Positions 15,959-64,000 of a DNA stretch of 64,000 nucleotides are shown here, piece after piece. Positions within the stretch are counted from its first letter, which is position 1, and each line of letters begins with the position of its first letter. The stretch lies in NCBI GenBank assembly GCA_964036195.1, contig OZ038453.1:25072352-25136351 (forward strand), read 5' to 3'. Below the pieces are notes generated by a model. The model did not search any database. It was not told the origin of the DNA and was given only the letters and a program-made list of their open reading frames with translations. Source of the stretch: Sphaerolaimus hirsutus. Lineage: Eukaryota; Nematoda; Chromadorea; Monhysterida; Sphaerolaimidae. A program made the position numbers and the translations under genes.

Positions 15959-18900
15959 TTCCCTGGAAATTAACAAAGAAATTTGGATCACACATTATTT
16001 CATCTTGCACCAATTTTCCACAGAATGGCATATCCAGTTCAGCCACTCCATTATTTTCTGCATAGGAGTGGGAGCTGTTGGGTATTTCAACACAATATTT
16101 CATACTTCTAGCCCCTCCACAGCTGGAGTTATGGCTTGTGGATTCAAGGAGACGACTGCCAGACTTGGCTGGAACACGGTTTACTAACCAGCAATTTTGC
16201 TCATCTTCCCCATCAATGCAATCTGTTATGTCATCACAGGCCCAACTCAATGAGATGCTGCCAGAGTCAAAGCCTTCACAATAGATTTGATTCATCATGT
16301 TTTTGGCTTCCTCTGTGACTCCACTGGGGCAAACCAACTCTTCATTTAAGTCGACACAGTCAGCTGCAGTTGTAGCCAGGCTTGTAGCCCCCTTTTTGGT
16401 GTGTAAATTACAGTGTGAATTTGGAAAAAATACTGTGCTTAAAACACACCATCAATATACTATTATTGACATGCTGGGCATGTCATAAAAAATAGGTAGG
16501 CTAAAACTTAGGTTCGTAATAAATGAGACTGAACAGTATATTTTTGGACATAAATAAGGATATACCTACACTGCACTGCTATGTGCTGAACTGTGTTAAA
16601 TACTGAACTTTTTTCAAAGTATTTGATGTGTATAAGAACTTTTGTGTATATTTATGTAAAATGCTTTTTTTTACTCACACATGAATACAGAAAATGTAAA
16701 ATACTTTTTTGACCCATACTCATGAGTACATGTGAGTAAATTACTTTTTTCCCCAGGAAAATGTAAAATCGGGTATTCTTTCACTGTGAAAATGTAAAAG
16801 CATGTACTTGTCTCCATAGAAGATGTAAAAGTGGGCATTCTTTTCATTAAAAATATGAGAGTAAGTACTTTTTTGCATGTGAGAGCCATTTTTACACTGG
16901 ATGACATAATAGATGTACTTTGTTAGTTTTTATTTAGTATTTATTACGAAAAATGATATGATTTATTCAAGATGTTCTTATTTTAGCAACAAAAAATTGC
17001 GATTTTAGTGACAAAAATACATTTTCTGTACACGTGTACTTTTCAAAAGTACGCGTACAGATGAGTACAGGTACTTTCTTAAAATTAGATGTATATGTAT
17101 TTACAAAGTACTTGAGTATGTATTTTCGAGTAAAAGTAAATACATTTTAACAACTGTTAATACCCAGAGTGTCCGGGTATCCTGGGTAAACGTTAATACT
17201 TTTTTGCAACACTGGAAAATAATCAATAACAAACTGGAACAATTTTGCTCATCTTCCCCATCAATACAATCTAAGAAATTATCACAGTTATAACCCAATG
17301 GGATGCTGCCAGGGCAAAAGCCTTCAAAAAAGAAGTCATCTATCAGGTCAATGGCTGCCTCCGTGACTCCACTGGTGCAAACGAACACTTCCATTTTGTC
17401 GACACATGCAGTTGTGGTTGTAGTCTCAGTTGTGGTTGTAGTTGTGGATGTTGTAGTCGGTGTTGTCGTGGTTGTAGTTGTGGATGTTGTAGTCGGTGTT
17501 GTCCTCGGTGTTGTCGTGGATGTTGTAGTGGATGTTGTGGTGCTTGGTGCTTGCGTTGTGGTCGCTAGAATGTGTACTGTTTTGTTGCAAGATGATAAAG
17601 TACAGATGGGTTGGTACAATCAAAGTGCTGTACCCATGAGTACTTACTCAGGATTACAGGTACTTTTCCCCCCGTGGACAACTTCCCCCCCCCCCCGGAG
17701 TGTGTTGTATTAGCGTTTTGTCCGTGCTGCATTAGCGTTTTGTCGTGTTGCATTAGCGTTATGTCCGCACGGACATAACGCTAATGGAACACACCACGGG
17801 GGGAAGAAGTCCATGGGGGGAAACGTGATGTTAACGCTTACTCAGTACGCAGTTTTATGTGTATTTTAGTGTACCGTATTTCCTCGAAATACCCCCGGGG
17901 GGTTTATTTTTTCAGAGTGAGATTTTTGAGGGGGGTTAAACGAGGGGGGGGGGGTATATCGAGGGGGGGTTATTATTTCGCCAGAAATTTTTTGAAATCC
18001 CAGTACTAAAATGTCGTCTGAAACGTACGAAGAAATCGAAAAATGCAACAAAAATCGCCATTTATAAGACTCTAAAGACATTTATAAGTGTGTAGACAGA
18101 CGTACAAACACTGTTCTCACATAACAGAGTCATCATTTGAACGTGTGTTCTGCATTGCCCGGATGACAAACCGCAGCCTTTGTCATTTACGTTCTCTATA
18201 CACTAAATTTGGGGGGGGGTATTTCGAGGGGGGGGTTTATAAGTTCATAGTGTCCATTTTGAGGGAGGGGGGAGGGTATTTCGAGGGGGGGGGGGGTTTA
18301 TAAGTTCATAGTGTCCATTTTGAGGGGGGTATTTCGAGGGGGGTATTTCGAAGAAATACGGTAAATGTAAATAACCAATATCAACTCTGCTATCCAATTC
18401 CCTGTGGACTGGATAAATGGTGTACACAGCAAAAAATGGATCCGTGAAGCGTGTGGAAGCAACCTGGATGCGCGTGAAGCGGCACACAGCTTCCACACGC
18501 TTCCACCGACATCACGAAAATCTCGGTGAAGTGTCTTCCACACGCTTCACCTAGCTTCACCGCGCGCTTCACATGCATCCAAAATGTGGAAGATCCACAC
18601 GCTTCCCGTACCTACACATGTGTGTGGGAGCGCCATACAAGGAAGCGTGAAGTGCCTTCACACAGATTTTTGCAGATGGAAGAACCGGCATGCTTGGTGA
18701 AGCGTCGGGAAGTGTCGGCGTGATGACACTTCCCGACGCTTCACCGCGCATCCACACACCTATTTTTTGCTGTGAAAGGGACTAACGTTGCAGGCATGAT
18801 GACTCGTATTCCTGCTCAACAACATCCCAAGTAGTGGCTGGTGGCTCGCAGAACCTACAAAATATGTATTTATTGGGAAAAGATATAAGAATGAATATTT

Positions 18901-25643: not shown

Positions 25644-28600
25644 TTTTTGGAAAGTACAAACATAAATAATACATAAATCTTTCCACTTTTATACAAATTA
25701 TAATTTATTTGAAATTGTGAAAGTATTTAAAAAACATTTTTGTAAAAAATGAGTAGGTAGATATCCCCAGAATACCCTGGTATTCCAGGCTTTAGAAGCA
25801 AACACATTTCTGCAACGGTGCTGAATTGCAAAGGGAAACCAACCATATCCGCGAACTTCCGCTTGACAGTGCTCTGGAGCGACACTTGTTTCATAGGTTG
25901 GTGCTTTTATTTGGGTAAATTCCTCAGCTAAATTTGGGGGTTTAAAGGGTGGAGATTTATTGGTTACTGCTTAAGTCTAGCTTAGGTTGTTGTACATCAC
26001 ACAAAATCAGAGTTTTCTGAAGTGTAGAATGTAAATAAGCACAAGCGAAACTGTCCTTGTAAATATTTATATGAAATGAAATGTGAAATTGCTAGTGCAT
26101 GTCTACCAGAAATTGCCTTTTTTATCCAAAATCAGTATAGAAAATTAAGGCCCTCCCTATATTCCATTCCATATTGAACTTCCATTGAAAACCATATTTG
26201 TACTTGTAAATAGAGCCACCAATAGATGCCAGACTTTAGAGTTAAAAATGTTATTTCAGTATTTGTGTGCACACTAACATGAAAAATATGAACATGCATG
26301 TGTGTGCATGGAACAGCACACTGATAACGTCAGTAGACAAAGTGGTAACTTCATAATTATTAGAAAGATATTTTCGATTCACATCAAAAAATATAACTAA
26401 TAAATAATAAAAGTCTGACTTTCTGGACTAACTTTAAATATGCTTCTGTTCAGTCTCCGATTATGTTGGACAGTCAAAAAATCCCAACATTTTCCACTGA
26501 ACATCTGGTTACTTTTCTAATTAACCTTTTTCCCTGAAATATTTGGATCATTTTCCCACGCCAACATACATGCTTAAATCTTTTTATATTCTTCCTTCAT
26601 ATGAACTAAATGGTGAGAAAAGAAAGAAAGAAAAGAATCTGCTCTGCATCTGGGGGCAGTCCCAAGCCGTGTAACGTGTAAAGTAAAGTGTCAAATTTAA
26701 AGTCAAATGCAAAGTAAAGTGCCATTGTTCCATGGCGCTGGCGCCATTTAATGGTGTGCCAAATAGCAACGCCATCATTGACAAACTACCTAAACTGGAT
26801 CGGCATCACTGAGCCCCGCAAACAGGCGGGGGGGGGGGGGGGGGGGGCTCAGCCTCCCCCCCCCCAGTTTTACCTAAAGAGAAACTGAATTGCATCATGA
26901 TGATGGCACCATTAACAGGCGCCACGCCATGGCACTATTGGCGTTGGCGACAGCGCAGTGGCATGCTCTGTAAATATACAAGCAAATACAGTGACAAGCG
27001 CACCATTGAGTGTATTTATTTACAGTTTTACCTGCATACTTGTGCTCAGCCAGTGCCAGTGTACACGCATACTTGAATACTGATATTCAACAGCGAAATA
27101 TTTCTGGTAAAATAGACTCACAAAAGCATGCGCCTATATGTCCCAAAACAGCTGTGTGCAAAGACATATTTATGAAATGCCCCCAAAATAAACATCGAGA
27201 TGTGAAAAGATACACCAGCTGCACGCTGCAGTGCACTAGCGGCTTACTAGCAAACCTACTAGTGTTGGAAAAAACACCAAAGAATGGTGTTAGCTGCGCC
27301 TAATATAATGGAATTGCGCGCGCGCCTAAAACATTGCGCAAATGAGTGACGCTGATGCTATATTATGGAGCGCAATATAAACAATATAAAATGCAGCTAA
27401 ATATTATGGAGCTTGCCAAACACTATGTAGAAAAGGAATGCTAGCATTTACTTGGAATTGTTTACACCATTTGGCGCACTACAGTAAGCCAATTGGCTTG
27501 GTGCCAACAAGGTTGGCTTGTCTGGAATTTGAAAATTCAAATTTGAGGTTCCAAATTTGAAAATAGCTTGCATTTTCACCTGTCAGCTGTCAAGAAGAAG
27601 CTTAGATAAGATCTAAGCAAAGATGATTGATGACACTGACTTCAAAGGGTAAAACCGCAACCCAAGAAATTATTGACAGCTATTTTGGTGCACTACAGTA
27701 ATCTAGACTTGGCGCCATGCCAAGAAGATGGCTTGTCTAGACATTTGAAGCAAAACCTAGATAAAGATCTAAAAACTGCTAAAAACTGAAGCAAAAAGAC
27801 CAAGATAACAATTTAGAGCTGTCATCATATTGCATAACTGACAGAATGTGCACACATGTTGCAGAAATGTTGAGCATTTGACAGAAAGCATTGGTGGGGA
27901 AGTAGCTTGTGAGCAAGCTATGGAATGATAACAGAAAGTGTACCCAGTTTTGAGTTGATGCAAAAGTCGCCAATTAAGGTGAAACTTCAGTCGTACACTA
28001 GAGTTTGTCTGGCTTTACACACATGCCTAGTGATTTTACTTGCATCAAGCGTTTTATGAATATCACTTGCCTGCCTATGTTAAACTCCGCCCACTCAGGT
28101 AACAAAACTGGAGCTGTCATGTCAAATGGAAAAGCAAAATTGGTTTTTGAACTGCAACCTTTTTGCTTGGAAAAATCAGGCTGACTTCCAATGAGAATAC
28201 TCTGTTTCTGTACTGAACCTATTTTTAGCTCTGTGCTATTTTTGGCTGTGTGCCAAATTCCGTTTTCCTAGGTCACTGGACCTAAAGGGCCACTGGGCTG
28301 GTGTAGCTGCAGAGGGCTGCTTAGCGTATTCGCGGCCGGGAGCTTGAGAAAAGCTCTCACAAGTCTGCTTGCAGTGATAAGTGATCCCTGCAGTTTGCAT
28401 TTCATGTTTTTACCTATCTATTTGCATTTATTTGCATATTTCGCTACTATTTACCCTATTTACTGCTAATTGCGACCTAATCCTAATTTTTGCCGCAATT
28501 ATTCCCCAGTTTTGCGAACCTACCATTTTGCTGCCTAAGTTAGGTAGACACCTATTTTCCATCGCTAGTTCCATTTATTTGTGACAACATTTGCTAGTTG

Positions 28601-42690: not shown

Positions 42691-43682
42691 TTCTGAAGTA
42701 AATATCGGGCAGTTTCTCAGTGGTCTCACCTTTGGAAGTGCATATTTCCATGAATTTTCAACCGATTTTGATGGTTGAGCACTTAAAATGATCAGAATGA
42801 TGTGGCAATCACTTTTATGAAGCAATTACAATGATTACAAATGAAAGATAAAATATTTAATTCATTACAATGTCCATAGCCACTATTGTCTACTTGTCAG
42901 ATATTTTACGTTTTTACTAATTTTACTATTTTCCGTTTTTACCACAAAAATACGCCACTCGTCGAATTTTGCCGCGGCAGAGAATTGCAAATTCCGGTCC
43001 CTTTGCGCTTCCACTTGCGTGCTTAATTAAATAAATAATTGGTTTTATGGTACGGGGATGTTTACACGCAAATCAGGAACGGCGCCAGTACCCCTTGGGG
43101 TCCTGACAGTTCCTGAGGACGGACACGGCAACTTACCAATCCCTTTCATAACTGCTGCCGGCGGTTTACTTCAATTAATTGTTAAAAAGCCGTAATTAAT
43201 GAAAAGCCGAAATTAATAAAATTCAAATTAAAATTCAAGCAGTTAGTATGCTTCAGGGGGACCAAGTTGGTTTCACGGGAACTTTATTTAGCGATGTAGT
43301 CAGAGTCAATTTCACAATAGCTCAAGTGAGTCGTATAGCCTCTAGTGGGTGAAAAAATGTAAAATCAGCGCGTTTTATAATCACCAAAATCTACCATAAT
43401 CGAACTGAATACTAAATCAAAGACAAAACAATTAACCATAATAAGCGAATTAATAAGGCGTAATCAATGATCACTGGAAAACTGTAAACATAACGTACAA
43501 GGCACAAGTAAATTAATTAAATGCGGGAAAATCATCTAATTAAATAAAGCGGGTAAAATATGGGTCAAACCAAGCGTAAAGTAACTGTAATTACCAATGA
43601 CGTAATTAAAATACAATTTATCTCGTAGGTGAGTGTCGAGAACTGGGTTTCTATTCAGAGGAGCAGAATATAAGGACATTTT

Positions 43683-44100
43683 AACCTATTGGGGAAAAGG
43701 GTGTGCGCTACACTCGTTCCTAGTAAAGAAAATGTTGGTTTATGGTAGGAAAATGTCCGGAAAGTGTCCGTTTTGTGAGAGTTATGTCCCATTTTTGGAA
43801 ACTTATGTCCCATATTATGACGTCATAGTTGTTGACGCAAAAGTGGGTTACGGTAGCGACGCGAGAATTGCGTCGTCGTATAGTATTGCGTCGTATTTTT
43901 TTGCGCCGTATCCAAATCTTATGGTAGTGTTGGGGAAGATTGGGTTTTGCGTCGCTACCGTAACCTAATTTTGCGTCAGATTTTTTTGCGTCGCTACCGT
44001 AACCTAATTTTGCGTCAGATTTTTAATATGGAATTTTTTGTGTGTGTGTGGGGGGACTATTGGAACGAGTGTAGTGCACACCCTTTTCCCCAATAGGTTA
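43683..44100. mobile_element. MITE with 38-base inverted ends
   Basis: AACCTATTGGGGAAAAGGGTGTGCGCTACACTCGTTCC at the left is mirrored at the right end (43683 and 44100). The inside has a direct repeat of TTTTTTGCGTCGCTACCGTAACCTAATTTTGCGTCAGA. No coding content. Confidence 0.75.
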
Positions 44101-44390
44101 AATAGTCCTTATAGGTGATTTTGTGGCTGTTTTTATGGAATGATAAAGTGATTGAAGAGGCATTTTTTATTGAAATATTGATAAGCGAAAACAAATACAG
44201 GCTAGGCGATGGTATTACATGCTTTTTTTCACAGATTTTCTCTGAAAATCACTAGACACACTCTTCAAATGTTTGGACTTTGTCTGAGTGTATTTTGAAA
44301 CTGCAAATTTCTGCAGTGTGCACTTGAATGCGGCCTCATGCATTCTGCGTGGGGTGGGCGGAGCGTATTTGAATTTTGAAATACGGTATT

Positions 44391-46307
44391 TTATAAAGGT
44401 AGTACGTTATGCATGAGCCCCGACCTTTTTTGAATTTTGTCATGCCTATGGTGTTCGACAAGAGGGGTGGTAATTTTTCTTTTTTTGGCCATGTCATCTT
44501 TTTCTACAAGTTTGTCGACATGGTGCCAATTAAATTGTACAAAGGGAAGTAATTCCCTCGGTATTTTCAGGGGCTCATGCGAAAAGCACCCTGTGCAAAT
44601 TAGATATGGGACATGTAGCATGGGTCGATTTTTCTTGGTGCCCTCACAATACTTGCACCTGGAAAATGGGGGGGTGAAAATGAGTTTTTATAATGAAATT
44701 TTTTCATAAATAGGTGTAATTATCAACTGACGTGTGGATAATTTCACCGTTTTCTGTAATCACACACTGATTTTTGAGTGTGAAATTCATGAAATTGTCC
44801 ATGGACCGCCTATTTTCTGAATTTTCTGCCAATTCATTGCGGTCTAATTTTTTCAAAACTTTGCAAGACCAGCCGACAATGTTGTCGGGCATGTCTCCTG
44901 CGCATGCAACATGTATACTGTTTTTATTTTGTCGGGTGTTACCTTGGTGATGTTAAAAAATAACAAACTTGTAAGATATTCTGCATCAATATAGTGTCGA
45001 CACCTTTGAGCAAAATCAATGACTGTTTCTCTTGATTTTGCAGGGTCGTCCCTATACATTGGATGTGTGAATGCAAAATCCATGCTTTCTGGTATTTTTA
45101 TTCTAAATTTGGGCATGGTTTTGCCATCTCTAAGGGGACTGGGACGACGGCGTCCCAGCAAATATAAATCTGCTTGAGTAGGGAATGCGAAAGAAAATGA
45201 AAAAGTGTAACATGTGGGGTGGTGAACAATACAAACTTACTATCTTGATCGTGCAATAGTTTTTTCACACAGGTGGAAATTAGTGTGTGAATTTGGGATG
45301 TAGTAAGTGTTATTCCCAGGTGTTCCATGAATCTTTTTGGAACATAAATATTCACTTGTGGCTGTTGCACATCCTCTGCAACCACCGTTTTGAAAATCTG
45401 AAAAAATCCCCCCACATACTGCAGATGACTCCAGAAGGACGACCGATGTGATGAAGAAGGAACAAACCTCTATCTGGACAGCCATACCATTGTGCTCCAG
45501 TTGAATTTTGCCCGTGTCGGGCAGGATGGTTGATTGGATTGTGGCCTGGGGGCTGTCCCAGAGCCTGTAAAATGTAGAATAATGTGTAAAATACATGTAA
45601 AATGTCATGTAAAGTGTCAGTTTTTCATGAAGTTTTCCATGTATTATCAGTAAACATCTTGAAAAATGCCACTTTACATGGCATTTTACATGTATTTTAC
45701 ATATTATTCTACATTTTACAGGCTCTGGGACTGTGACCAGGCTATATACAGCTGTTTTGAGAGGTAGTTGATGGAAAGAGAGAGCTTGTGAATCCCCATC
45801 TTTGTATAGTTGAGATTTGGATTTTTTGTTTATGTCCATTTTCAGTGATGTCATTTTGAGATGGAACACCCTGGTTGCATATAGAAAATATTCCTAGGAG
45901 TGAAAATGCGTCTGAATGGATCATGTCGATTTACCGGCAATCTTCTGTTCGTTTTTGTGAAAAATGCAATATGGCGGACTTTTTTGCCGGAGGGGGGGAG
46001 GGGTGGCGTTTTGCAACGTTCGCTTTCGATCGGATTATATTAGGGAGGGGGAGGTGCAAAAAATGTTCGCGGCGCCTACCTGCCCGCGCCGCCGCATTTG
46101 TTTGTCATGGAAATAATCGCTGCGTGGTGCGGCGGCGCGGCGGCGGCGCCGAGCTGCCGCTGCACAGATTGCAATTAGATTTGTTTTAGTGAGCTGTATG
46201 TGTACAGCCCAATCAGGACGCATTTTCACTTTGCCCTGTTTCATGGGAAGAACTATATTGTAAGGCTTTGTAGAGATATGATGTGTCCAAAAACAGAGTT
46301 CTGACAT
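44391..46307 (-). CDS. Zinc-ribbon protein of unknown function (413 aa, 7 exons)
   Basis: Exons: 46080-46307, 45750-45893, 45468-45545, 45241-45397, 44969-45169, 44732-44897, 44391-44658. All introns are GT-AG and phases (0, 0, 0, 1, 1, 2) agree, giving 414 codons with the stop. Exon 1 is Ala/Arg-rich from a GCC-rich stretch and is the least certain. The later exons have ordinary globular composition. The last exon begins CKYCEGTKKN and continues to ICTGCFSHE, a Cys-x2-Cys ... Cys-x2-Cys zinc ribbon, followed by a Lys-rich tail. I do not recognise the family; a nucleic-acid-binding or regulatory role is only a guess from the zinc ribbon and basic ends. Intron 2 (204 bases) consists almost wholly of a transposon. 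Neighbouring genes on this strand have the same 60-75-base introns. Confidence 0.6.
45556..45730. mobile_element. MITE forming most of an intron
   Basis: Inverted ends TCCCAGAGCCTGTAAAATGTAGAATAATRTGTAAAATACATGTAAAATG, about 60 bases each, flanked by CTG on both sides (45553-45555, 45731-45733). It accounts for 175 of the 204 bases of intron 2 in the zinc-ribbon gene. Confidence 0.8.
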
Positions 46308-46644
46308 GTGTGTTCATAATTATGAAAAGTTTGATTGTCATGATATTTTGTAAAAATGGCTACAAAAATAATGGGCAAATTAAGATGGACTATCTTTTAA
46401 ACGGATAAGTTTGTATGACCTTGTGTAAAACCGGAATGGAACGCTCTGTTTTGGACAAATGACACTATTTAATAATGTGACATGTGCGCAAGGTTGACGC
46501 CAACTTACCCTCCCCTCGCAAAAATAACTTTGTCGGTTAAACAGATTAAAATTAGGATATGGCCTTGTCGCCATTAGGTTTTGTTACATTGTAATTTCCA
46601 CACCCATATGTATACAGCATTATTGTAACTAAGTGTAGGATGTA

Positions 46645-46944
46645 TCGTTTTTCTTCAAAATGCCCCCATGGGATATTATTTTTCAACGTTGATGTTTGAA
46701 GTGGGGCTGACTATACTGGTGATGATGTAAATACATATCACCAAAATGAAACTAAATAATCCAAAATTGTTTGAATGTTATCGATGTGCGAAGAAGATTG
46801 CTAAGTACTATAATGTAAAAAGTGATTACAATCAAATAAAAATGTATAAATGCTACTGTAGAACAGATGGTGAGGGAGTTTACGATAATTCAAACATCAA
46901 CGTTGAAAAATAATAACCCATGGGGGCATTTTGAAGAAAAACGA
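46645..46944. mobile_element. TA-flanked element, TCGTTTTTCTTCAAAATGCCCCCATGGG ends
   Basis: Inverted ends of about 60 bases with TA on both sides. The terminal phrase is a diverged form of CCGTATTTCCTCGAAATACCCCC, so it belongs to the TACCGTA-type group. Confidence 0.7.
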
Positions 46945-48097
46945 TATGTGCTGGAAATCTGGATTCGGCTTTTTACGTTTCGCTGATAATGTAGAGATAG
47001 AGATGTGTCGCTTACGTTTTCAACCACTTTTAACACATCCGGTGAAAACGTTTTATGTTTACATATTTATAAATACTAAAAATTATGTTTTAAATGTATA
47101 CAAAAATGAATAAATAGATAAATAAACACTGGCAATCATTGATAAAACGGTTTTTGGGGACTTAGGCAACAATGAAAGTTTATATTCAGCGGATATGATA
47201 CTGTGCCATCACGCTCGTTTTTTGGAGACATGCCAATAGTGATAAAGGACACGTTTTTTGCATAAAAGGGTGAAAGGTTTGTTGTCATGAAGATATTAAG
47301 ACCTTAGGTTAAAAAATGTGATGTTGTTCCATGTTTTTATGAAAATTACATGCTTTAATGTTGGTATGTCTCCAGTAGCAACCGTGTATGCAAGGGGTAA
47401 AGTGAATGGACAATAGTAGCCTTAAAACAGTGGATTATAAAAAGTATAAGTAAAAAAAATAACGCTATCAGATATATATCTAAAAGAAGGTTAAAAAATA
47501 GAATGTTAATACGTTTACATTTTTGGCAAAATAAAATACTTTTTCCACACTTGTAAAAAACGTAAAAGTACAAAAAATGCTTACGTTTATTTTCGAGCTT
47601 TAAACGTTTTCGAAAAACTCTAGTCAGGGGCTTAATGTGATTCTGTGAAATATACTGTATTTGGTCGTCAACTTTGGATTTTTTGTTTTTGAATTAAGAA
47701 CCGGTTTTTAAACCCCCCCGCCCCCCCCCCCCTTTCTCCCCCTCCGAAAAACATAAAAAATGGGTAAACAGTCTGATCTGGGGGTATTTAATCGCGGGCT
47801 GTAGCTGGTAAGCGGCACAGAGTCACTTTGGGTGGCTGGCGTGGCGAGATTTCAGACATTTCTGAAGTGAGAAAACAAGGCGATTGACAACAAGTGCTAG
47901 TATATTTGCAATGGCTGTTTAATGTTTTCATTGCTTTGTTTGATTGTCAAATTTTTTATACGTGTTGCTGATTTGTCAAATAAAGTGACAACTGTCAAAA
48001 TGACGAAAAAAGTGAAAATTGTCAAAAATGGCTTTGAAATGAATAATATTCTAGCGCTTGTTATGAAAACTTATAGACATATATTATAGGATATTTC
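46945..48097. other. No gene seen
   Basis: AT-rich sequence, with remnants of ACGTTTTC-type words at 46980-47060 and 47440-47620 and a C run at 47716-47742. No ORF or splice-consistent exon. Confidence 0.45.
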
Positions 48098-50206: not shown

Positions 50207-52648
50207 TAAATATAGTGTAGATACATACCAATGTTGCAACTTTTTTTTGCTGACAGTTCAAGGTGGTTTTTTGTATTAACTGTGATGTGTACTTTTCCAT
50301 GTTCTTTTCAAGATTAGATTCCATCTCAAGAATCTTTTCAATGATGCCATTGTCAGGTGTTGATGGTTGTGGTTTCTATGTGGGGGTTACTATTTAGTAT
50401 TTCAAAGAACATTTTAATCAATAATCAAAAGTTTTATGTACCCACCAGTGTTGTCATGGGCAATTCGTTTTCATGCATATTTTTTGCCAAAGTTACAGTG
50501 CTGAATTCATTCAATTTTGCCATGAAACTGTTTTCAAAGTTTGCCAGCTTTTCAGAAATGTGCCCACTTTGCACATCCATCTTTGTGGAAAGTTGTTTGC
50601 AACTGCTTTCAAAGTGTGCCAGTTTGTCAGAAATGTGCCCACTTTGTACATCCATCTTTGTGGAAAGTTGTTTGCAACTGCTTTCAAAGTGTGCCAGTTT
50701 GTCAGAAATGTGCCCACTTTGTACATCCATCTTTGTGGAAAGTTGTTTGCAACTGCTTTCAAAGTGTGCCAGTTTGTCAGAAATGTGCCCAGTTTGCACA
50801 TCCATCTTTGTGGAAAGTTGTTTGCAACTGCTTTCAAAGTGTGCCAGTTTGTCAGAAATGTTTCCACTTTGTACATCTATCTTTGTGGAAAGTTGTTTGC
50901 AACTGTTTTCAAAGTGTGCCAGTTTGTCAGAAATGTGCCCACTTTGTACATCCATCTTTGTGGAAAGTTGTTTGCAATTGCTTTCAAAGTGTGCCAGTTT
51001 GTCAGAAATGAGGGTACTTTGCTCATTTATTTTTGTGGTTGTTTGCATGACAATGTCACATTGGCCATTTTTCAGATTTGCCGTCAGACTGTTTGCCTCC
51101 ACCTCAAGTTGGGCAATTGTTGCCTTTTTTTGCATGGATATTTTGTTCAGTATTTGTTGTTCAGATTTGACAATTTTGTTTTCAATTTTCTGCTGCATTT
51201 CATCCATGCCTTCACACTTGCATACCTATATTTGATGAAAACACTTAATAAAAACTTCCACTTTCTAGTGAAAACCCAAAATAAAATTAACAATGAAAAC
51301 TTCCACTTTCTAGTGAAAACCCAAAATAAAATTAACATTGGAAAATAACCAACCGCCTTGGACATTGTCACAGCGTCCCCAGGCATTGTGACATAGTAGT
51401 CCATGTCAAACTTGGTTGGCAGTGTGCTTTCTGCAGTGGCAGTGGCAGTGGCAGTGGGTGTGGCTGTTGCTGTTGCTGTGACTGTATTGCCAAGTGTGGA
51501 TGCTGGCCATTTTTCCAAATTGAACGGCGTGTGGGTTGGGACCGAAGTGGTTTTCTCATTTTTGCATTCTATCTGTGTGTTTGGACCAAGTCTGAAAATA
51601 AAAGGGGTATATTTCGAGGAAACATGACCGTTTAAGAAAGTGTGGATAGATGTAGGTGTTACCCCCCAAAAGCTTTCAGACCAAAAATCGTGGTTTCTAC
51701 TTTATACATACCCAGCATAATGAGAAAATTTGCGAGTTGATATGCCGCTCCCCATCGTCAGATATACCCACCCGCAAACGTTTTCAATTATCTATTGTAT
51801 ATTCTTGAATAAGACCCCCTTGAATAATTTCTCCTTTGAATAACCCCCCCTCAAAACTACTACGAAAAAACAACTCTCTACTTTGAATAAGTCCGAAAAA
51901 ATAGTGCCCCTGGGATCTTATTTGAGGATATATGCCATACAATCCCCACGAATGAACGATTTGCTATGTGCTAGATCCCCACAAATCAACAGTTTGCTAT
52001 CTATCCAACCCCCATGAGGGAGTGGTTTGCCATCTATCCAACCCCCATAAAGGAGCGATTTGCTATCTATCCAACCCCCATGAGTGGGTGGTTTGCTATC
52101 TATCCGACCCCCACGAGGGAGCGGTTTGCTATCCATCCAATCCCCAGGAGGGAGCGATTTGCCATGTATCCAATCCACACAAGGTGGTGATTTGCTATCC
52201 GTTCGGCCCTCAAGAATGTCAAAACGACCGTGAAACCTCCGACTCCTCCCATCAAAAACGATATATAAGAACGTACCGCGGCTGCAGTTGCACTTCTAGA
52301 CTGCAAAGTTCAGCAGGAAGTTGTAGTTTCTTTCCAACGCTCCATTCGCTCTTTATCCTATCCTAAAATTTAGTTTAAATGTTTTGAAATAGTTTTTTAA
52401 ATTTAAAAAAGGTTTAATAAAAATTTTAAAAACGGACCGATCGAAAATTTGCCTTTTTTAAGTCTTGGAGTGAGCACACAATTGTGCCCGTCGAATTGAT
52501 GGGACAAGTGCAGAACGAACAAATACTTTCATAAGCGCCCAAAGTGTAGCCTATATTTTTGAACTGTTTCGTTTTTTTGTTGGAATGATGCCAAATTAAA
52601 AAACATACCGAAAAAATACAAAATAGCGAAAACAATTGGCTGGCGCAT
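49223..52648 (-). CDS. Signal-peptide / 25-residue-repeat coiled coil / transmembrane protein (717 aa, 10 exons)
   Basis: Exons: 52609-52648, 52438-52550, 52277-52362, 51354-51591, 50446-51225, 50229-50375, 50024-50161, 49859-49966, 49434-49796, 49223-49363. All are GT-AG, all phases agree, and the total is 718 codons. Order of parts: a hydrophobic signal peptide in exon 1; Cys-x-Cys-x5-Gly-Thr-x2-Cys in exon 2; a Thr/Ala-rich linker (exon 4); in exon 5 about seven copies of a 25-residue unit with the core KLAHFESSCKQLSTKMDVQ; more coiled coil; then in the last exon about 20 hydrophobic residues and a ~20-residue charged tail. This predicts a type I membrane protein with a long coiled-coil ectodomain, a layout shared by viral attachment or fusion spikes and by some host receptors. 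No fusion peptide or known domain is identified. Its place beside capsid genes makes a virion-surface role plausible but unproven. Confidence 0.72.
50560..51015 (-). repeat. 75-bp coding tandem repeat (25 residues)
   Basis: Near-identical 75-base units recur in frame within exon 5 of the coiled-coil gene. A 25-residue period equals 7+7+11, which keeps hydrophobic positions aligned in a coiled coil. Each unit has one conserved Cys. Long plus-strand ORFs here are mirror shadows of this repeat. Confidence 0.9.
51950..52205. repeat. Minisatellite in intron 3 of the coiled-coil gene
   Basis: About nine copies of a ~31-base unit, CCAACCCCCATGAGGGAGCGGTTTGCTATCTAT. Directly before it (51785-51945) is a TTGAATAA(C/G)CCCC element. 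Together they make this intron 685 bases, against 57-128 for the others. Confidence 0.85.
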
Positions 52649-53398: not shown

Positions 53399-56300
53399 AT
53401 GTCTTCGGCTGGCAGGTTGCCAATGAAAACTTGTGAATCGACTTCCCACTGTATTTCATTTCATTACAACACTGAATTGGTTTACTGGGTCATATGTTCA
53501 TTGTTAACAGTGATTATGGTGCCATGATGGAGTGTTACCTTCAGAAAAAGTGTAGTATGTTAACAGCAGAGTATGCCATAACAACATATCAATGTTTACC
53601 CCTCAGGTTCTCCACTGGAACACATCTGTACAATCTGGATGACAACACAGGCAGCAGGCAGAAGCTCTTGTTTGAGCTTATAACCCTCAAAGGCTGTGAA
53701 ACGTCCCAAGAGCTTCTACAAGTTTTCGGCAAAGCTTTCAAGGAGCTACACTTGCAGTTTGGCACTTCAAAGGTGGAGCAGAGTGGCAGCAAGAAAAGTG
53801 AAGTTCAGAAAGACAAAAGCAAGGCTAGTTTTTGTTTTTAGATCTTGTGTAGTTGTGTGTGAAAATGCCCCCTTTTCTCTTGAATGTGTTTTTTGATTTA
53901 AAAAATCCCCACTCTTGAATAATTGCCTCATGGTATGATTAAATAAAGCCCCTGGGGATCTTACACTTTACATGTTGTGATATGTGGTTTTTGCAGAGTA
54001 AAAATAACCCCCTGGGGTTTTATTTGTGAATGCGTGGTGTACAACAATGCACAATTGCACAAAACATTGCAGACACTTGACATCATCGATTCTACTGGAT
54101 CCACCAGCACCAAAGCTGTCAGCAGCACCCCCAACACCCAGCAAGCACCGGCGCGAACGTATGCTGCTGTTGTTGCAGCTAATCACACTTTTAAAGCATC
54201 TGCAGGTGGACCACTGTCCACTTTCTGGAGGCCAGGTGTGTTGGAATGTGGCACCTTGTAGTGTTTTTGCTTACATTGTGTGAATGCTTGATTTTTGCAT
54301 GATACAAATTCATTACCCCCACTTTTTGCACAGGCCCGACAGCTGTCAAGCCGGTGGTCGAAGCTGGGATCTACACCCCCCCCTGTGCTGACGAGCAGCC
54401 ACCAAGAAGGCCAGAGCTCCTGGTACAGACCGAGCTGGAGCAAGTGAAGCAGGTGGACGGGTCTGCTGCCCTGTGTGGTCGCGGACGTGGACGTGGACGG
54501 GGGCGTGTGTCGACGGTTGACATACCCATAGCAAGGTTGGTGGGCTTGGCTTCACAAATAAGACCCCAGGGGGTTATTTTTACTCTGCAAAAACCACATA
54601 TCACAATATGCAAAGTGTAAGATCCCCCGGGGCTTTATTTCATAAAGGAATTATTGAAGTAAATGTGGCAAATAATGTGTAAACATTCTTGTACAAACAC
54701 AGGGTGCTTGTTGCTGACGTTCAACGCGTACCGCCATCGCCAGCAATCGAAAGGGTCAGGGATTTCAGACCTGTTCCCAATGTTCTGCCGCCCACGACAC
54801 GGTCAAGTAGCACTGGTGGACAGAAGCCAGGGTTGGTCATTTTTGTGAATGTTTGCTAATGTTGCTGTTGAATGTCACATTTTTGTGGGTTTGCTATGGT
54901 CTGCCAGCGAATGCCAATATGTTTTTTATCTCTTATCCCCCCCCCCCCCCTTTCATGCAGATACAACCAAGGTGGCCATATCACTACCTACAGCCAACAG
55001 CCAGTCCTTACAGGTGGGACACCTGTGTCCGGAATCTGCAGCTGTGCTGGCCAGAACAGCACCACCGAATGCCACCAGGTTGAATGTGGAGCAAAATCTG
55101 GGCAGTCAGACAGAAGTGGTGACCACGTCAGTGACAGTAATTACAGAGATAGTGGATCGACACGTGGACAATCAGCAACTCAGACCACTCAGATTCAGGT
55201 GCCCTCCTGGCAGCAGACCGCCTCCTTCCAGCAGGCCACAATCACCAGACAAGGACACAATGGTCAGAACAAAAAGGACACAAAGACAGGACACCGATCC
55301 GGAACGGCTGAGGAGATGGCAAGATGGACAGCCCCCACCCCCCCAGGTTTGTGGTTTTTTCATGTTTTTATTGTGATTTGTGTGTATGTGTGCGAAACAG
55401 TCATTTTTTCCATTGTCCATTCCCATTCCCCCCCACACAGCAACGATTGAGGGAGACCAGTTCAACGGTTGTGGTGACAACATCAAGGCCAAATCTCACA
55501 AGAGAAAGACTAGTGCGGGTTCAAGAGAGAGTGCTGGAAGAAGAAAGGAGGGCAGATGTAGTGGAGCAGGTTTGTTTTTCCATCACTTTTTCTTCATATG
55601 TTCAATGTTGAATCTGTTAAGACATTTTTAGTGACTGTGCTTTTCATTTTGCAGAGGAACACACCGGTCAGCAGCGACGACACATCGGTCGACAGCAACC
55701 CAGCCACCCAGATGGACACAGCAACAGCAGACAGCCACCAGAAACAGAAGGACAGTGGCTGCACCTTGGTTTGTTGATGTTTTTGTTGACATTCTTGTTT
55801 TGTTGTGAAAATGGTTGTGAAGATGGAAATGTGCTATGTTTTTGTACTTTGATTCAAACCCCCCACACCCCCCCTGTGCAGACGTCATCAGTGACCCCAG
55901 CTGTAGTCCCACAGGCCCAGGTAGAAACCCCAATGGACACAACGCCCCAGGAGACAGAAGGTCAAGCTGCACAGATGGAGGTGGACTCAAACACAAAGGT
56001 ATGTTGATAAGAGGGTTGTTTTTATGTTTGTGTGTACATACCATGGGATCACACATATTGCATATGGTGCTTTTCACATCTTAAGTGGGTCATACATATC
56101 ACATGTCGTCGTGCTTTTGACACCTCCCACCCCCTTATAGGCACCCATGGAGGTGGAAAAGCAGCTCCCAGTAGAGGCCATTCCACTACCGCCAGACACT
56201 CCCCAACAAAGGCCAATAGTGGCAGACTGGCCAGCCAGCACATCAAAGGCGGTGGTGCCAGTGGCACCGACTCCACCACAGGCACCGGCTGCACCACAGG

Positions 56301-59300
56301 CGCCGGCTGCACCACAGGCGCCGGCTGCACCACAGGCACCGGCTGTACCAGAGGGACCGGGTGCACCACAGACACCACAGGCACCGGGTGCACCAGAGGG
56401 ACCACAGAGACCACAGCCGCCGGGTGCACCACAGAAACCACGGGCACCACAGAAACCACGGGTACCACAGGTAGGACGGGCACAGCGGGCACCACAGACG
56501 CCACATGGACCGGTAGCAAAGAAAAGGAGGTCAGAACTGGAGGTGGTGATTGTGGGGTCTCCACCACCAAAGTGCCTACCAGGAATGACGGTTATGCAAA
56601 CATGGAGAGTGAGGGGGTTGAACGCACTGACCCAAGCATACAGCAGCACCAGCACCAGCACCAGTGGCCTGTTGAATGCCCCAAAAATGGAGCAGAGACA
56701 ACTGAAAAGGGTCACAAATGCAGACAACGCAGTGATATGTGTCAGGAAAAGGCTGTTCAGCTCACCGCAGAAGGGGGGTCAGCCCGTGGCAAAGCATATG
56801 AAGAAGCATCAGTGGCGTGGCAAATGGGGCTGGACATCCAGCGACAGCAGCTCAAGCAGCAAAAGCAACAGTTCGCCACAGTCGCAGACGGCCAGAAAGA
56901 AGCGCATGTGCAAGAAGTGCAAAGCAACAGCCAGCAGCACCAAGAGCAGTCGCAACAGCTCCCCATCACCACAAACACGCCTGCTGAAGCATGTCAACTC
57001 AAAGCTGGAACTAAGGCAGTTGGAAAAAAAGGCAGCAAACATGGTGATGGACAAGGAACAGACAGGGTCAGCACAGTGCTCTCCAGCGAAAGGTCAGGAC
57101 CAACAGGTGACAGTGGCCACGTCGTCAAGAAGCGCAGAACAACAGTTGGATCTGGACAGCCTGCCAATGGAGATGGAGAAGATCAGGGAGCTGCTACAGG
57201 TGAACGAGACGGTCCAGTTGGAGATGTGTCCACGCATGCGGCAGATAGCACGAGAGCACCTCCAGCTACCTCCTCTAAAGAAGCTGGAGGAGATGCTGGT
57301 GGAAGAGGCAAAGCAAATGCCGGACATGGATACAACGGTGCCAGTTCCCAACAAGTGTCCAGGGGGCGATCTAGACAGTGTGATAACGTCAATAGAGGAA
57401 GATGTAATCTGGCAGCTGCTGGGTCTGAACCAGCTCACAGACGATTTGCCAGTTATGACCAGTCCACTGCGTCAGGTGCATTTGATGATGGGGTTTGTAT
57501 TTGAAGTGGGGCGAAGTGGGGTGAAGTGGGGGGGTGTGATATCACAAACAATATTTTTGTCAATGCATGTCAGAAACGAAACGGTCAAATGTAAAATCAA
57601 TGTGAAGCTGTCATGGTCAATTCTTTTTATTCACTTTGCAGGTGGCACGGCGCAAGTTGGAAATGGTTGGCGCAGTGCCAGCTGCCGACCAGTGAGGGAA
57701 AGCAATCAAGAATACCAGGACCGTATGTCCACTTTTATAAGATGGTGCTGTGAGAAGGGATATATGGCAACAATGCCTCCAATGTCGATGGCTCAAGCTG
57801 CCCATCTTGTGGCATTGGGTGGTGGACAGTCAATTCCACCTACTCCAGTATTCGTGCCACACCCATTCGTGTCAATGGGACCACCAAGGTTCCCAATGCC
57901 ATCACCACCAAGGTTGCCAATGGCACGACCAACTTTGCCAGTGACACCACCAATGTTGCCAAGTTGCCAGTTGACACACCTGCCAGAGCCACATGTGCCC
58001 GTTGATCCATCTGCCCACTCTTTGCCAGAAACCACCACCACCACCACGAGAAACTATGCCACGATGACCAGCAGCAGCAGCAGGTCCAGTAGCTGTGCTG
58101 CCACCACCAGGGCAGAACCTGTGACTGAGCCTGGGGCCGGCTGCTCAACTGGACCTACACAAGGAATGGCAGCCCTTCTGGAGCCTCTGTCAGGGGTGCC
58201 AGATGTGCCAAGGGATCCAACGGGCAGACCGATGTACGAGCTGATCACTCCACCACCCCATGGCAGAGCTGAGTTGGGGGTTTCCGTTTCCTCCATCCCT
58301 GAAACAGCACAAGAGGGGGTGGAAAGGCTGAGGGTAGAGCCAGGGCAAGAGCCCACTGCTCAACAACAAATAGCCCAGCGCATAAACATAATCGAAAATG
58401 TGAACCTTGCTAGGGCTAAGGAGGTTGTGCGCGAGTGTGTGCTCGAAGCAGACAGACAAATGCTGGCCACAGCCTTGGCTTTGACAGCCTATGGCGGCAT
58501 GCTGCGCGCCATTGACATTGAACGGAATGCTTTGCCGTTCGATGCACTGTTCCGGGAGTATGAGGGTGTGGATCCAGAGCCACAAAAGTACATTCTAATG
58601 TTTGAACTAAACGGCAACCTCATGCGCACTCAAACGAGACACACAACCGACCCCCAGGTTGTTTCCACCGCAATGTGCACCCACTTGAACAGTGGCTTCC
58701 CAGTTAGACTACAGCGCATCATGTCAAGGGGCAGAAACAGAATACAATCCATGAGCGAAATCCATGTTGTGTTTAGGCAAAATGTGGATTTGAATGGGGC
58801 TGACATGTCGGGCACATTTTTGACAAAGGACTACCTAGGGCGCGAGGGGCATGGGCCATCGGCCTTAATGTACACAACGCTATATGCACGCGCGCGCAGG
58901 GGTTTTGGCAACCCCCCAAAACCCTTGGACACATTGCCAACGGTCCAATGGGTGCCCGATCCAAAGACTGGACAAATGCGCATCAAAGTGGATGGCTATG
59001 TTGGTTATCTATATATGCACATACAATAAATATGGGTGATGGGTTTAATCACTACTCAAATTCATAACCCCCTCTTGTAGATCCCCCGGAACAAGTCCGT
59101 GACCGAGTTGCAGTACGCCTTCATGGAAAAGCTGCAGGCAGATGGCAGAGTGGCACCGCCACCAAACGTGGACGAAATGGTGATGGCCAAACTGCTGAAG
59201 TGGAGAAAGGTGGAAAAGTTGATTGCGCGCGTGCTCTGCATGACGGTCAACCCCACTCAGGTGCCACAGGTGCCCCTGAATCCTGCCTATCGCAGGGGTG

Positions 59301-60618: not shown

Positions 60619-62594
60619 CTATGCATGGACTTGTTGAGTGTAAATGGTGTTGGTAGGGTCTGAAATAGTGAAATAGACGTTTGTGAAAATAACATACAAG
60701 TGTGAATATAACATGCTGTGAAAATGACACATAGTGAAAATGACATACCGATTCTCAAGAACGCGTCGTTTATTAATAATGTATATAATATCACACCACC
60801 CCGGGGTATGGGCTCCCCAAATGTCAAATTTAGAAAAGCATCACCAGTATTCAGAGCCTCCCAAGTATTGCTGAAAATGGAAAAATTACATTGAAAATGG
60901 CATTTTTAGACTCGTTTAGCTACATATAACATACCTGGTGACCTTATCATTGCACAAGCTTATACATACAAAGAATTGACATGTTGTAAACTTTATCATT
61001 GTCAACTCGTTTTGTACGGCTGTCCAGTTTTCAATTAAAGAATAACATTCTCTGAAAATGTCTGAGCTGTTTGCCATATTCCAATTGAATCGCAATGGTC
61101 TGTTTGGACATAGTCGTGAGCCAATTTGGACAGATAAGTCAGACACGTGCATTGGTATGTAGTTATGTCTAGGTTCATCTGTCGACTGGGGATTAGCAGC
61201 ATCGGTTTTAGTCATTGCAATTATTAATCCTCGAGGTAGCTTCCCCACCTACAAAAAATAAAAAATAAAAAAAATTTAAAAAATTTTTTTAAAATTTTTT
61301 TTAAAAAAACTAGCCTGGGTTCCTAGGGCAATGGGAGGCGCAGCGCGAGCTCCTTCAGTTAAAAATATCTGTATGTCATTTTCACAAGTGTTGTATGTGA
61401 TAAAACACAAATAGAAAAATGAGTAGCCAATGGTCTTTTTTTCTATTTCTGTTTTAATCTTCAAACAATTGTGAAATAGACACCTGGCCCACATTGTACT
61501 GTCTGAAGGAGTGGTAAATTCCATGTGTCTTAACACGATCAGCCAATGCAACAGATAGTGATGTCACCTATGTATAGGGTGTTAAAATCACATGTAGTGT
61601 GTTAAAATCACATGTAGTGTGTTAAAATCACATGTAGTGTGTTTAAATCACATATAGTGTGAAAATCACATACCGGGTGTATTTTACGCACAGACAACTC
61701 AATATTGTCAAATTTGATTTTCAGCTTTCCAACGTATTCCTTTGGTAGGCTAAACGATTCAAACATGAGACTGTCGGGTACTCGTCTAAGTACAATTGTC
61801 AATTGCATTGACGAATGCCAAGGCTTGGACTGTTCGCCAAAGTCCAGAGCCAATCTTCCATAGAACTCTTGAGTGAGAAAGACCGGTTCAGATCTTTTTT
61901 TAAAGTATCCGGTTGCACCACTTTGAATGTCTGGTGCTTCTTCGTCCTTGAGTTCCACCCAGCCGCTGGCTGCTAGTTGTGTTCGTCTATACACGCCACT
62001 TGTTTGTAGTACCTTCTTTATATATGCCTTTTTGCTGTAATTTGACTCTCGACACAGCAACAATGAATTGTGGAATATCTCTATTCCGTCCCAAATGCTT
62101 TCTAGTGGGTTTGGCACATATGCAACTTGATCCTTAAGCGACACAGGAGCTGCAGCATTAAAGATGTTTCCGACGGGATATTCTTTTTTTATCTCATGCC
62201 CATCGATTGTAACAACGCGCATCACCAAATGTAAATGTAGCGATGAGAAGTCCAATAGACCCGTACTGGCCGCAACAGTTGTGAACACGTCTTTGTATGG
62301 TGTTGAGCAATAGTAATCATGCATAAATTAAAACAAAAAACAATAATAATCTTACATGGTGATGTTTCATTGCCATCGCTTATTAGAAGCAGTTGTTCAC
62401 GATCACAGTGGCTCACATATGCTTGTGTCGGGGGTAATGCATCTAAATAGGGTGTGCCTTTTGTATATATGGCTTCAATTACACATGCATATCTTACCTG
62501 GTCGGAATTCTGGTGGACATGGTAGCAGGTGCGATCCACTGTCCAAAAGTTTCTTTCTTGGGCTCAATATACGTGCAGGATGATTGGAAGACAT
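60619..62594 (-). CDS. Major-capsid-like protein, 'F54H12.2-like' family (498 aa, 8 exons)
   Basis: Exons: 62498-62594, 62356-62457, 61674-62290, 61484-61567, 61315-61434, 60935-61248, 60749-60870, 60619-60659. Introns are 40, 65, 106, 49, 66, 64 and 89 bases. Every junction is in phase and the total is 499 codons. Landmarks match the family annotated in animal genomes as F54H12.2-like, which I know as a Polinton/virophage-type double-jelly-roll capsid: LHLHLVMRVVTIDG near the N-terminal strand pair, GRLALDFGEQ mid-protein, VGKLPRGLII at the second jelly roll, FLNLTFGEPIPRGGVILY near the end, and a short ILE/RID-type tail. Length also fits (about 450-520). Intron 5 uses a GC donor (AG|GCTAG). 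Exon 5 has no obvious match in the family and is the least certain. No stop or frameshift is seen, so the gene looks intact. Its product would build an icosahedral capsid. Confidence 0.8.
61576..61672. repeat. 21-base tandem repeat filling intron 3 of the capsid-like gene
   Basis: Five copies of GTGTTAAAATCACATGTAGT(G). The last copy includes the splice donor (GTATGTGATTTT on the minus strand), so the intron appears to have grown by duplication from its 5' splice site. Confidence 0.85.
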
Positions 62595-62775
62595 GATGTA
62601 AGCTAGTGCTGATGAACCATATGTATAATGACACGATATGTAAAAGCGACACAATATTGCATATATCGAAACATATGCATGTGTATTGTACTACACACAA
62701 ACAAGTACGCATTGGACTGTATCAAGAAAATGATTTTATTGAATTAATGCAACAGTAGCAAAGACACAACAATCA

Positions 62776-63330
62776 CTATAGCCACTCGGAAGAAACAGAA
62801 ATTCCAGCCGTGGAACTGTTTGATTTTGCATTCGCAGCATTGCTTGGTGGCTGAACAAACTGTATACTCTCTTGTGATTTCTTTTTCTTTCCTCCCTTTG
62901 CTGCTACTGGCACAGTGCCAATATTGCTTTCTAATGGTGGTTTTTGTGAGTGCAATTCTCCCTGTGGCGCTGCAGGTTCGCCTGTTGTGTGCGTAAACTG
63001 TTCCTGCTGTTGTTGCATGTTCACATCAGACGTATCTTGCACATTTGGCGTTATTAGTTTTTGTGAAGACAGCTCCGATAACATAGCAGACGACCATTTG
63101 TCGCGGTTTGTGGCTTCCAAAACACCAGCATTTTGATCAAGTTGTTGTGCCCAGTATTGTCGTGTAAATATTTCATCTGGCACATTGGCCATAGTATCAT
63201 ACCAGTGTGTACCACGTGGTGCAAACTGTAAATATGAGTTGCAGCTGGTTGTTTGATTTCGAGCTGAAGATAGAAAATTCGCTGATGACTGATATAGTGG
63301 CTTTGAACGACGAGATTGCCGATTAGCCAT
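62776..63330 (-). CDS. Small basic/low-complexity protein within the capsid block (184 aa)
   Basis: A single-exon ORF from ATG at 63330 to TAG. The N-terminal 90 residues look globular and basic (MANRQSRRSKPLYQ), with a Tyr/Trp-rich patch (RGTHWYDTMANVPDEIFTRQ). The C-terminal half is Gln/Ser/Pro-rich with a Lys cluster (GGKKKKS). I do not recognise it. It is packed between the major-capsid-like gene (181 bases away) and the penton-like gene (109 bases away) on the same strand, so a virion or DNA-packaging accessory role is inferred from position only. The absence of introns sets it apart from its neighbours. Confidence 0.55.
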   Translation of the reverse strand: MANRQSRRSKPLYQSSANFLSSARNQTTSCNSYLQFAPRGTHWYDTMANVPDEIFTRQYWAQQLDQNAGVLEATNRDKWSSAMLSELSSQKLITPNVQDTSDVNMQQQQEQFTHTTGEPAAPQGELHSQKPPLESNIGTVPVAAKGGKKKKSQESIQFVQPPSNAANAKSNSSTAGISVSSEWL

Positions 63331-63439
63331 TTTGAGTCGCCCACAACAATAGAATAGTCAAATAATCACTGCAAAAGTTTTGTTTTTGTTTATTCATACA
63401 ACAACCGATAAAGTAATAAAGAGATGAATGAATCGTAGA

Positions 63440-64000
63440 TCAAATCCAATCGGCATCGACTCCGCCTTCTGCATTTGAATTCGTCAATGCACATTTTGCA
63501 AACACAATTCCATTCGCACGCATCGGTTTGCCCCAATGGTTGAAAAGAGCTATTTTCAGCCCTTTTTCGCATCCACTTGTCGGTGTCTGTGGTGGTGGTG
63601 TTGTTTATATAGTATGTGTGTACATGTGTGCATGTGGCTACACAAGTATATATTACCTGTTTCAGTGGTACAAAGTGCGGCGACGTTGGTTCATATACAT
63701 AATTGCGCCGTGAAAACTGCCACGCAGCTGAACCGCTGTCGGGCGAGTGTAGTGCCGCTTTCCATGTAAACACAGCCAATATTGGCTTTTCCTCAGATTG
63801 AAATACGGTACATGTTGGGTCCACGCTATCACATCGAACTTGTACTTGTCGACGTAAATCCAGCTGATGGGGAACCGTGGCATATGTTCGCATTCTACTG
63901 ATCATATATCCGCGTTGCCTATTGTTGACATCTTGCCAATCAATTTGATTTGCACGTATATGTGACACACTGACAAAGCCTAGTTCCCATGCCAAGTGCT
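63440..64000 (-). CDS. Penton/minor-capsid-like protein (C-terminal part, runs off the window)
   Basis: Two exons are visible: 63657 to beyond 64000, and 63440-63586, with a 70-base GT-AG intron in phase 0. The upstream exon opens at the window edge with WELGFVSVSHIR, matching the WE(V/L)GL(V)xI start seen in Polinton/adintovirus penton-like single-jelly-roll proteins. It continues with VQVRCDSVDP and PHFVPLK, which fit the later strands of that family (typical CDxV and PHYVPV). The last exon, in a frame not used by the longest ORF there, gives GLKIALFNHWGKPMRANGIV and ends TGA, fitting the family's C-terminal strand pattern. The N-terminal part lies past 64 kb. In these elements the penton gene usually neighbours the major capsid gene, as here. 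Confidence 0.65.

Follow-up and report, generated by a model that had tools for sequence, protein, structure and literature searches.

A 64,000-nt stretch of the genome of the nematode Sphaerolaimus hirsutus (assembly GCA_964036195.1, contig OZ038453.1, positions 25,072,352 to 25,136,351; hereafter the window) harbors part of a Polinton/Maverick element whose capsid-like gene is interrupted by seven introns. The element is mobile, multi-copy and recently active. The introns of the capsid-like gene differ between copies, and some of the variable ones are hairpins whose frame-restoring ends lack the usual AG. Our overall account, to which we give a probability of roughly 70%, is that of a recently active Polinton that would be expressed in the nucleus, to which miniature inverted-repeat transposable elements (MITEs) would add hairpin introns, with those hairpins that lack AG being removed by a route that reads the hairpin. 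To our knowledge, Polinton-type genes are usually taken to be intron-free.

The element, its copies and its introns

The Polinton/Maverick unit is 37.7 kb in length and runs from window position 43662 to the window equivalent of 81404 (C4:25153755). Position 64000, which an earlier note made from the letters of the window had treated as the limit of the find, is only the end of the window, and the element continues for a further 17.4 kb. Terminal inverted repeats were found by comparing the whole window with the 20 kb of sequence that follow its last position; the element ends AG...CT and is flanked on both sides by CAGAGG, a 6-bp target duplication. No long inverted repeat is present in the close flanks of the capsid-like and penton-like gene pair. 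Polintons typically end in AG...CT, and PolB and integrase belong to their usual gene set. Beyond the end of the window, and on the same strand as the capsid-like gene, PolB is represented by two exons matching PF03175 (E 3e-10 and 1.3e-6, each above the cut-off), for one of which no relative was found in 5.8 billion proteins or among PDB sequences. A retroviral-type integrase exon on this strand matches PF00665 (E 1.2e-7) with 32.4 bits, slightly below the cut-off of 32.6, and the same stretch matches NCBIfam IS481 (E 7e-4) far below its cut-off. The earlier note had advised extending the sequence past 64 kb in search of replication, packaging and protease genes. The extension yielded PolB and integrase, as well as an open reading frame (ORF; L009:6405-7064) with a Walker A-like CSGKT seen by eye and no Pfam or NCBIfam match; it yielded no Pfam match to an adenain-type protease among the 20 ORFs scanned, where exons may be short for detection. 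Because it combines terminal inverted repeats, 6-bp target duplications, and PolB and integrase exons, the element is a Polinton/Maverick by both structure and replication genes, as the note had proposed.

The 348-Mb genome searched, whose size and introns mark it as eukaryotic, contains many copies of the element. The frame of capsid-like exon 3 alone has 193 matches, and 150 of the 304 candidates in the exon-3 search were scored. Type A, in which exon 3 is 99-100% identical, occupies at least 22 places; type B (88-90%) is found at at least 14, and type C (86-89%) at about 14, with the C hairpin carried by 14 copies. A further 30 rows that were read have an exon 3 that is 72-82% identical. 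Inverted-repeat pairs lying 37.6-38.5 kb apart enclose ten other capsid copies (40 of 193 repeat candidates scored), and exact 6-bp target duplications border all ten elements tested, namely that of the window and nine others read at both ends. Among elements whose capsid exon 3 is 99-100% identical, the terminal repeats split into two groups that are only about 70-73% alike, which suggests an exchange of ends between elements. One of the nine (G000:C2:270800-313937) carries its right-hand terminal repeat twice, at a distance of 5.5 kb, with the same duplication, TGTATT, beside both, and two inverted pairs (C8, 35.5 kb; C13, 30.9 kb) have no listed capsid copy inside.

The capsid-like gene lies on the minus strand (62594-60619) and consists of eight exons and seven introns of 55, 65, 106, 115, 66, 64 and 89 nt, encoding 471 residues (1416 nt including the stop). 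Hand splicing in the earlier note had given 498 residues and introns of 40-106 bases; the seven introns and their in-phase joining stand, whereas the protein is shorter and the introns span 55-115 nt. The 70-base intron that it had described in the penton-like gene is borne out, and is GT-AG in 35/35 rows with a usable penton alignment out of 46, after exclusion of L001-L008 (sequence too short) and three more below 60% identity. Taken singly, the exons find alignments in other copies that cover most or all of each exon, with differing inter-exon spacing, and their peptides are conserved above the DNA (93% amino acid against 82% nucleotide identity for L012 and L013). The possibility of chance alignment, which the note had raised against its own proposal, can be set aside because the exon-3 frame alone is matched so many times in the genome. 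The exon pieces have no significant match in Pfam, PHROGs or NCBIfam. For exon 3, PDB sequence searches gave chance-level matches or none, and nothing was found among 5.8 billion proteins with the exon either alone or length-padded; IMG/VR, queried with exon 3 as well as alignments built from three exons, gave pattern matches and no relative, and phage records contained no relative. The labels capsid-like and penton-like are thus our assumption, drawn from gene order and family landmarks, and the two virion-type proteins would presumably adopt jelly-roll folds.

The intron map comprises 46 rows representing 44 genome places, as two places were retrieved twice. In the capsid-like gene, five introns, at the exon 1/2, 2/3, 3/4, 6/7 and 7/8 junctions, are common to all rows, and nine positions (denoted by exon and residue where they lie within an exon) are variable: E3:109, E3:153, E3:157, exon 4/5, E5:6, exon 5/6, E6:7, E6:11 and E7:25. 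The junctions of introns 4 and 5 are fixed by copies that lack these introns. Presence at exon 4/5, exon 5/6, E5:6 and E6:7 was scored by hand; L025 and L030 were left out at exon 4/5, as their intron lies within exon 5, and in L020 and L031 the donor at E3:153 was set too early by the aligner. On a tree built from a single exon piece with 39 distinct rows, in which 17 of the 36 inner branches are weakly supported, the variable positions require 13 changes, with two each at exon 4/5, exon 5/6, E5:6 and E7:25 and one each at E3:109, E3:153, E3:157, E6:7 and E6:11. Intron turnover within the Polinton is thus well supported. The tree has no outgroup and separates gain from loss by parsimony only, on which basis we infer gain as the direction. 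The intron gain inside a viral element that the earlier note had envisaged is supported by the difference in intron presence between subfamilies.

The introns are of two kinds. Plain introns have GT/GC-AG ends in 264/265 rows at the six junctions whose ends are determined by frame alone, a count that leaves out introns within an exon, for which the aligner allows only GT/GC-AG; the exception, L020, is a poorly aligned copy. The exon 6/7 and 7/8 junctions are GT/GC-AG in 92/92 rows. The ends of plain introns pair weakly, with median duplex energies of -2.4 to -6.7 kcal/mol, and the medians for the hairpin introns are -22.1 at exon 4/5, -25.8 at E6:11, -21.2 at E6:7 and -12.1 kcal/mol at E3:153. 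Median fold z-scores are -6.6 at both exon 4/5 and E6:11 and -2.7 at E3:153, with most plain sites lying between -1.0 and 1.0. Eight folded examples form hairpins of near full length, and their exon junctions lie at or adjoining the hairpin base. In types A-C, introns 7 (60660-60748) and 3 (61568-61673) contain TATGTNATTTTCACA-like units in tandem, similar to the repeats that end the hairpin at exon 4/5. Expansion of tandem repeats was considered, in view of such units, as a conceivable general source of introns.

The hairpin at E6:11 is 77% identical over about 70 nt (E 1.7e-7) to the one that L024-type copies carry at exon 4/5. A genome search with the E6:11 hairpin gave 1,558 candidates, and the 40 places scored comprise 21 capsid copies and 19 dispersed copies, at 76-83% identity. 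The ends of ten dispersed copies were read; these copies have inverted repeats, and the trinucleotide CWG (CAG or CTG) stands beside the left end in 9/10 and beside the right end in 9/10. No 8-bp duplication of the hAT type was seen for the MITE in these dispersed copies. A half copy of the hairpin MITE is also found outside the element at 26650-26715. Because the hairpin of two intron positions is also dispersed elsewhere in the genome, at least one hairpin type would thus be a MITE-like element turned intron, as has been proposed for Introners and for mirusvirus capsid genes.

Not all hairpins end in AG. At exon 4/5, the frame-restoring ends are GT-AG at 9/19 places (eight type A and one type B), and the other ten are without AG: two B copies have GT-CG, three C copies GT-GT, three L024-type copies GT-CA and two L033-type copies GT-TC. 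The ends at exon 5/6 are canonical at 11/17 places and GT-AT in three B and three C copies, and both B copies measured at E6:7 have GT-TG. Every frame-keeping, stop-free GT/GC-AG pair around each insert was scanned for an alternative, the scan covering single introns within its range. In canonical controls the scan recovers the exact junctions; for non-AG inserts no GT/GC-AG pair scanned restores the protein exactly. The least damage amounts to about 4 residues in L014 and L018, 5 in the L033 type, 7 in the L024 type, and 23 and 14 in type C at exon 4/5 and exon 5/6, respectively. B copies lose or gain 18-19 residues at E6:7 and have no GT/GC-AG solution at exon 5/6. Reading through the insert encounters a stop in every row tested.

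The copies also carry the mark of selection. The ratio of replacing to silent substitution rates, dN/dS, is 0.027-0.042 between types A, B and C (all exons, five pairs) and 0.018-0.039 within type C. In pairwise comparison, the ratio of silent to replacing codon changes is 15:1, 14:2 and 13:1 among the three C copies with shared non-AG ends, 6:0 between L033 and L048, and 18:1 in the B pair L013/L014. Since the non-AG ends are common to all three C copies, the codon changes among them most likely postdate those ends. Two clades with non-AG ends are, by their codon changes, under strong purifying selection, and because silent changes far exceed replacing ones, the capsid-like protein is probably made in C copies with the hairpins taken out.

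Proposed removal of the hairpins

In the account that we favor, the virion-type genes would be expressed via the host nucleus, and hence be able to carry introns, with the plain introns common to all subfamilies read as their core. New introns would come from small hairpin DNA transposons, the MITEs, inserting in capsid exons beside a CWG trinucleotide, and the hairpin formed in the RNA would draw both exon ends together. Hairpins with GT..AG ends could be removed by the spliceosome, whereas those without AG would be cut out by a nuclease-ligase route guided by the hairpin and not by the AG, akin to SOS splicing, which recognises inverted repeats, or to a euglenid-like process. It is the non-AG ends together with continued selection that point to removal of this type. 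The choice of target would explain why some inserts carry AG from the start, in that a CAG copied on the right side would give AG and a CTG would not, although such a duplication is not established. Splicing itself, together with the removal mechanism, we infer from sequence. A further step, in which the element tolerates and now depends on spliceosome-independent, SOS-like, hairpin-guided excision, such that inserted transposons become introns at once without an AG and travel with the element, is put forward tentatively, at rather less than even odds.

Several observations weigh against this account. The ends of the variable inserts were fixed by the conserved reading frame and so derive from protein conservation. 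The hairpins at E6:11 and E3:153 end in AG in 16/16 rows each, partly by construction of the aligner, and AG may still matter. The CWG is identical on the left and right in 4/10 dispersed copies, with no clear target duplication, and the dispersed copies read do not establish a simple CWG duplication of 3 bp. Matches to the type C hairpin are limited to the 14 C copies and one degraded copy, with no dispersed relative at the sensitivity used. The samples are small, with three C, three B and two L033-type copies; insert ends were read in three of the 14 C copies, 11 being known as matches only, and the C pairs are not mutually independent. L013 and L018 differ by 18:6 silent to replacing changes, the replacing ones lying in exon 3, and L024 and L046, at 1:0, are too alike to test selection.

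The main rival explanation is that the spliceosome alone, perhaps helped by the hairpin, removes the inserts, with non-AG copies being spliced at a different GT/GC-AG pair, or at an unusual 3' end, to give a slightly altered capsid protein. Every non-AG insert measured retains its 5' GT, the exon 4/5 site is GT-AG at nine A and B places, and the cheaper frame-keeping options described above exist for L014 and L018 and for the L033 and L024 types, those of about 4-5 residues counting against our account. However, the best options for C copies would sacrifice 23 and 14 residues, and B copies have none at exon 5/6 and lose or gain 18-19 at E6:7. The residues that would go are identical in protein despite silent codon change, as in exon 5, where L015 and the window copy share 100% of the protein and 87.5% of the DNA. 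We thus regard a spliceosome-only explanation as unlikely, albeit the one to be taken most seriously. Less likely again is that non-AG copies are capsid-dead and are carried along by transposition through PolB and integrase, while other copies provide the capsids or the genes for them. Polintons could conceivably move without capsids, several copies elsewhere contain stops or frame shifts, and the hairpin of L014 and L018 differs from the GT-AG hairpin of L013 by a single base at the splice site, which resembles a fresh mutation. A dead gene would nevertheless be expected to gather around three replacing changes per silent one, in contrast to the 13-15 silent to 1-2 replacing changes among C copies and the 6:0 of L033/L048. 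The earlier note had offered domestication as its alternative to gain inside a viral element, that is, a host gene derived from a Polinton capsid gene that acquired introns like any other host gene. Introns and intact frames would suit such a gene, but the 22 near-identical copies, and the complete elements in which inverted repeats, exact target duplications, PolB and integrase belong to the same 37.7-kb unit, make it highly improbable; the gene sits in a young, multi-copy mobile element, and host domestication is ruled out by the target duplications around complete copies.

Features of the window

The coordinates of the element and its genes within the window are collected in Table 1. The left arm of the element has a G+C content of about 50-54% between 54000 and 59400, compared with about 34-43% in its surroundings. 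This arm also contains a plus-strand ORF (56141-59029) encoding 962 residues rich in Pro and Ala, with no significant Pfam or PHROG match. A minus-strand ORF of 263 residues (50434-51225) contains 6.5 copies of a 75-bp repeat and looks coiled-coil-like by eye. At 46643-46946 there is an inverted repeat with 58-nt arms, 98% complementary and 188 nt apart, which is possibly a further small transposon within the element. In the host part of the window, ORFs at 9235-9690, 15924-16451 and 17101-17619 resemble LDL-receptor class A repeats by eye, which would fit an animal host.

Table 1. Positions of the Polinton and its features in the window
Feature	Position	Strand	Remarks
Left terminal inverted repeat	43661-44123	plus	463 bp; 99.6% alike to inverted L010:6943-7405
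Polinton portion in window	43662-64000		remainder C4:25136352-25153755, loci L009 and L010
MITE-family hairpin insert in left-arm ORF	45544-45742	minus	81-nt arms, 90% complementary; frame open through insert
Capsid-like exon 8 and stop	60619-60659	minus	intron 7 = 60660-60748, plain, 46/46 rows
Capsid-like exon 7	60749-60870	minus	intron 6 = 60871-60934, plain, 46/46 rows
Capsid-like exon 6	60935-61248	minus	
Capsid-like intron 5	61249-61314	minus	variable, A/T-palindromic; GC-AG in window copy, GT-AT in B and C copies read
Capsid-like exon 5	61315-61368	minus	
Capsid-like intron 4	61369-61483	minus	variable hairpin intron, terminal inverted repeats; GT-AG in window copy
Capsid-like exon 4	61484-61567	minus	intron 3 = 61568-61673, plain, 46/46 rows
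Capsid-like exon 3	61674-62290	minus	intron 2 = 62291-62355, plain, 46/46 rows
Capsid-like exon 2	62356-62442	minus	intron 1 = 62443-62497, plain, 46/46 rows
Capsid-like exon 1	62498-62594	minus	
Small gene between penton-like and capsid-like genes	62776-63330	minus	apparently unspliced; function unassigned
Penton-like gene, last exon	63440-63586	minus	
Penton-like gene intron	63587-63656	minus	70 nt, GT..AG
Penton-like gene, exon preceding last intron	63657-64000	minus	114 residues in window, runs past window; 68-81% to nine other copies

Relation to known systems and significance

Vertebrate Mavericks (PMC8097293) share with the present element the inverted repeats, 6-bp duplications, PolB and integrase; what sets this 37.7-kb element apart is that two virion-type genes together contain at least eight introns. 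The Polinton-like viruses have been reported to contain group I introns, which are of a different kind (PMC12220804). No description of an intron-rich Polinton, Maverick or adintovirus was found in the open-access literature, and, as far as these searches show, an intron-rich Polinton with intron turnover is apparently undescribed. A large survey of endogenous viruses used a prokaryotic/viral gene finder on the assumption that these viruses are free of introns (PMC10120064), and intron-rich elements would be missed by scans of this type.

The closest parallels concern introns that arise from transposons. Intron-rich mirusviruses (PMC12768974) likewise have spliceosomal introns that are concentrated in virion genes and vary among close relatives, with candidate Introners in the major capsid protein gene. 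They differ in belonging to another virus phylum, in infecting single-celled hosts and in having overwhelmingly GT-AG introns, and no host genome shows the source of their Introners. Introners are intron-making, non-autonomous DNA transposons, many of which have inverted repeats (PMC9860276). In keeping with them, the same element here occupies at least two intron positions (E6:11, and exon 4/5 in the L024 type) as well as the 19 dispersed places elsewhere in the genome; in contrast to them, it lies within a virus-like element, some inserts are without AG, and a target duplication is not established.

Two systems offer precedents for hairpin-guided removal. In SOS splicing, transposons are excised from mRNA by unknown endonucleases and the ends are sealed by RTCB (PMC13247085). 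Such a process would similarly excise DNA transposons from mRNA without the spliceosome, but it is described as a defence, whereas here the inserts would be lasting introns of the element's own gene. The nonconventional and intermediate introns of euglenids (PMC4770533, PMC11170887) have pairing ends, non-canonical or half-canonical borders and a proposed MITE origin, all of which are reminiscent of the hairpins in this gene. Their consensus of CCAGG at +3 to +7 and CCTG at -9 to -6 (PMC11170887) is not matched, since the inserts start with GTGCCAG, GTACCAA, GTGTCAA or GTGTCAT, none of which by eye agrees exactly with CCAGG. Most plain introns of the present element have T-rich tracts at their end, in contrast to the C-rich tracts of euglenids (PMC4770533, PMC11170887).

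This family of elements provides cases with and without hairpin-transposon introns in one and the same gene, and the genome that carries it also contains a likely donor family. With its non-AG hairpins one can test directly whether lasting introns can arise through an SOS-like system, and the findings bear both on the origins of introns and on their spread by viruses. If the proposed dependence on SOS-like excision is true, hairpin transposons of the host would become introns of a virus-like element and move with it.

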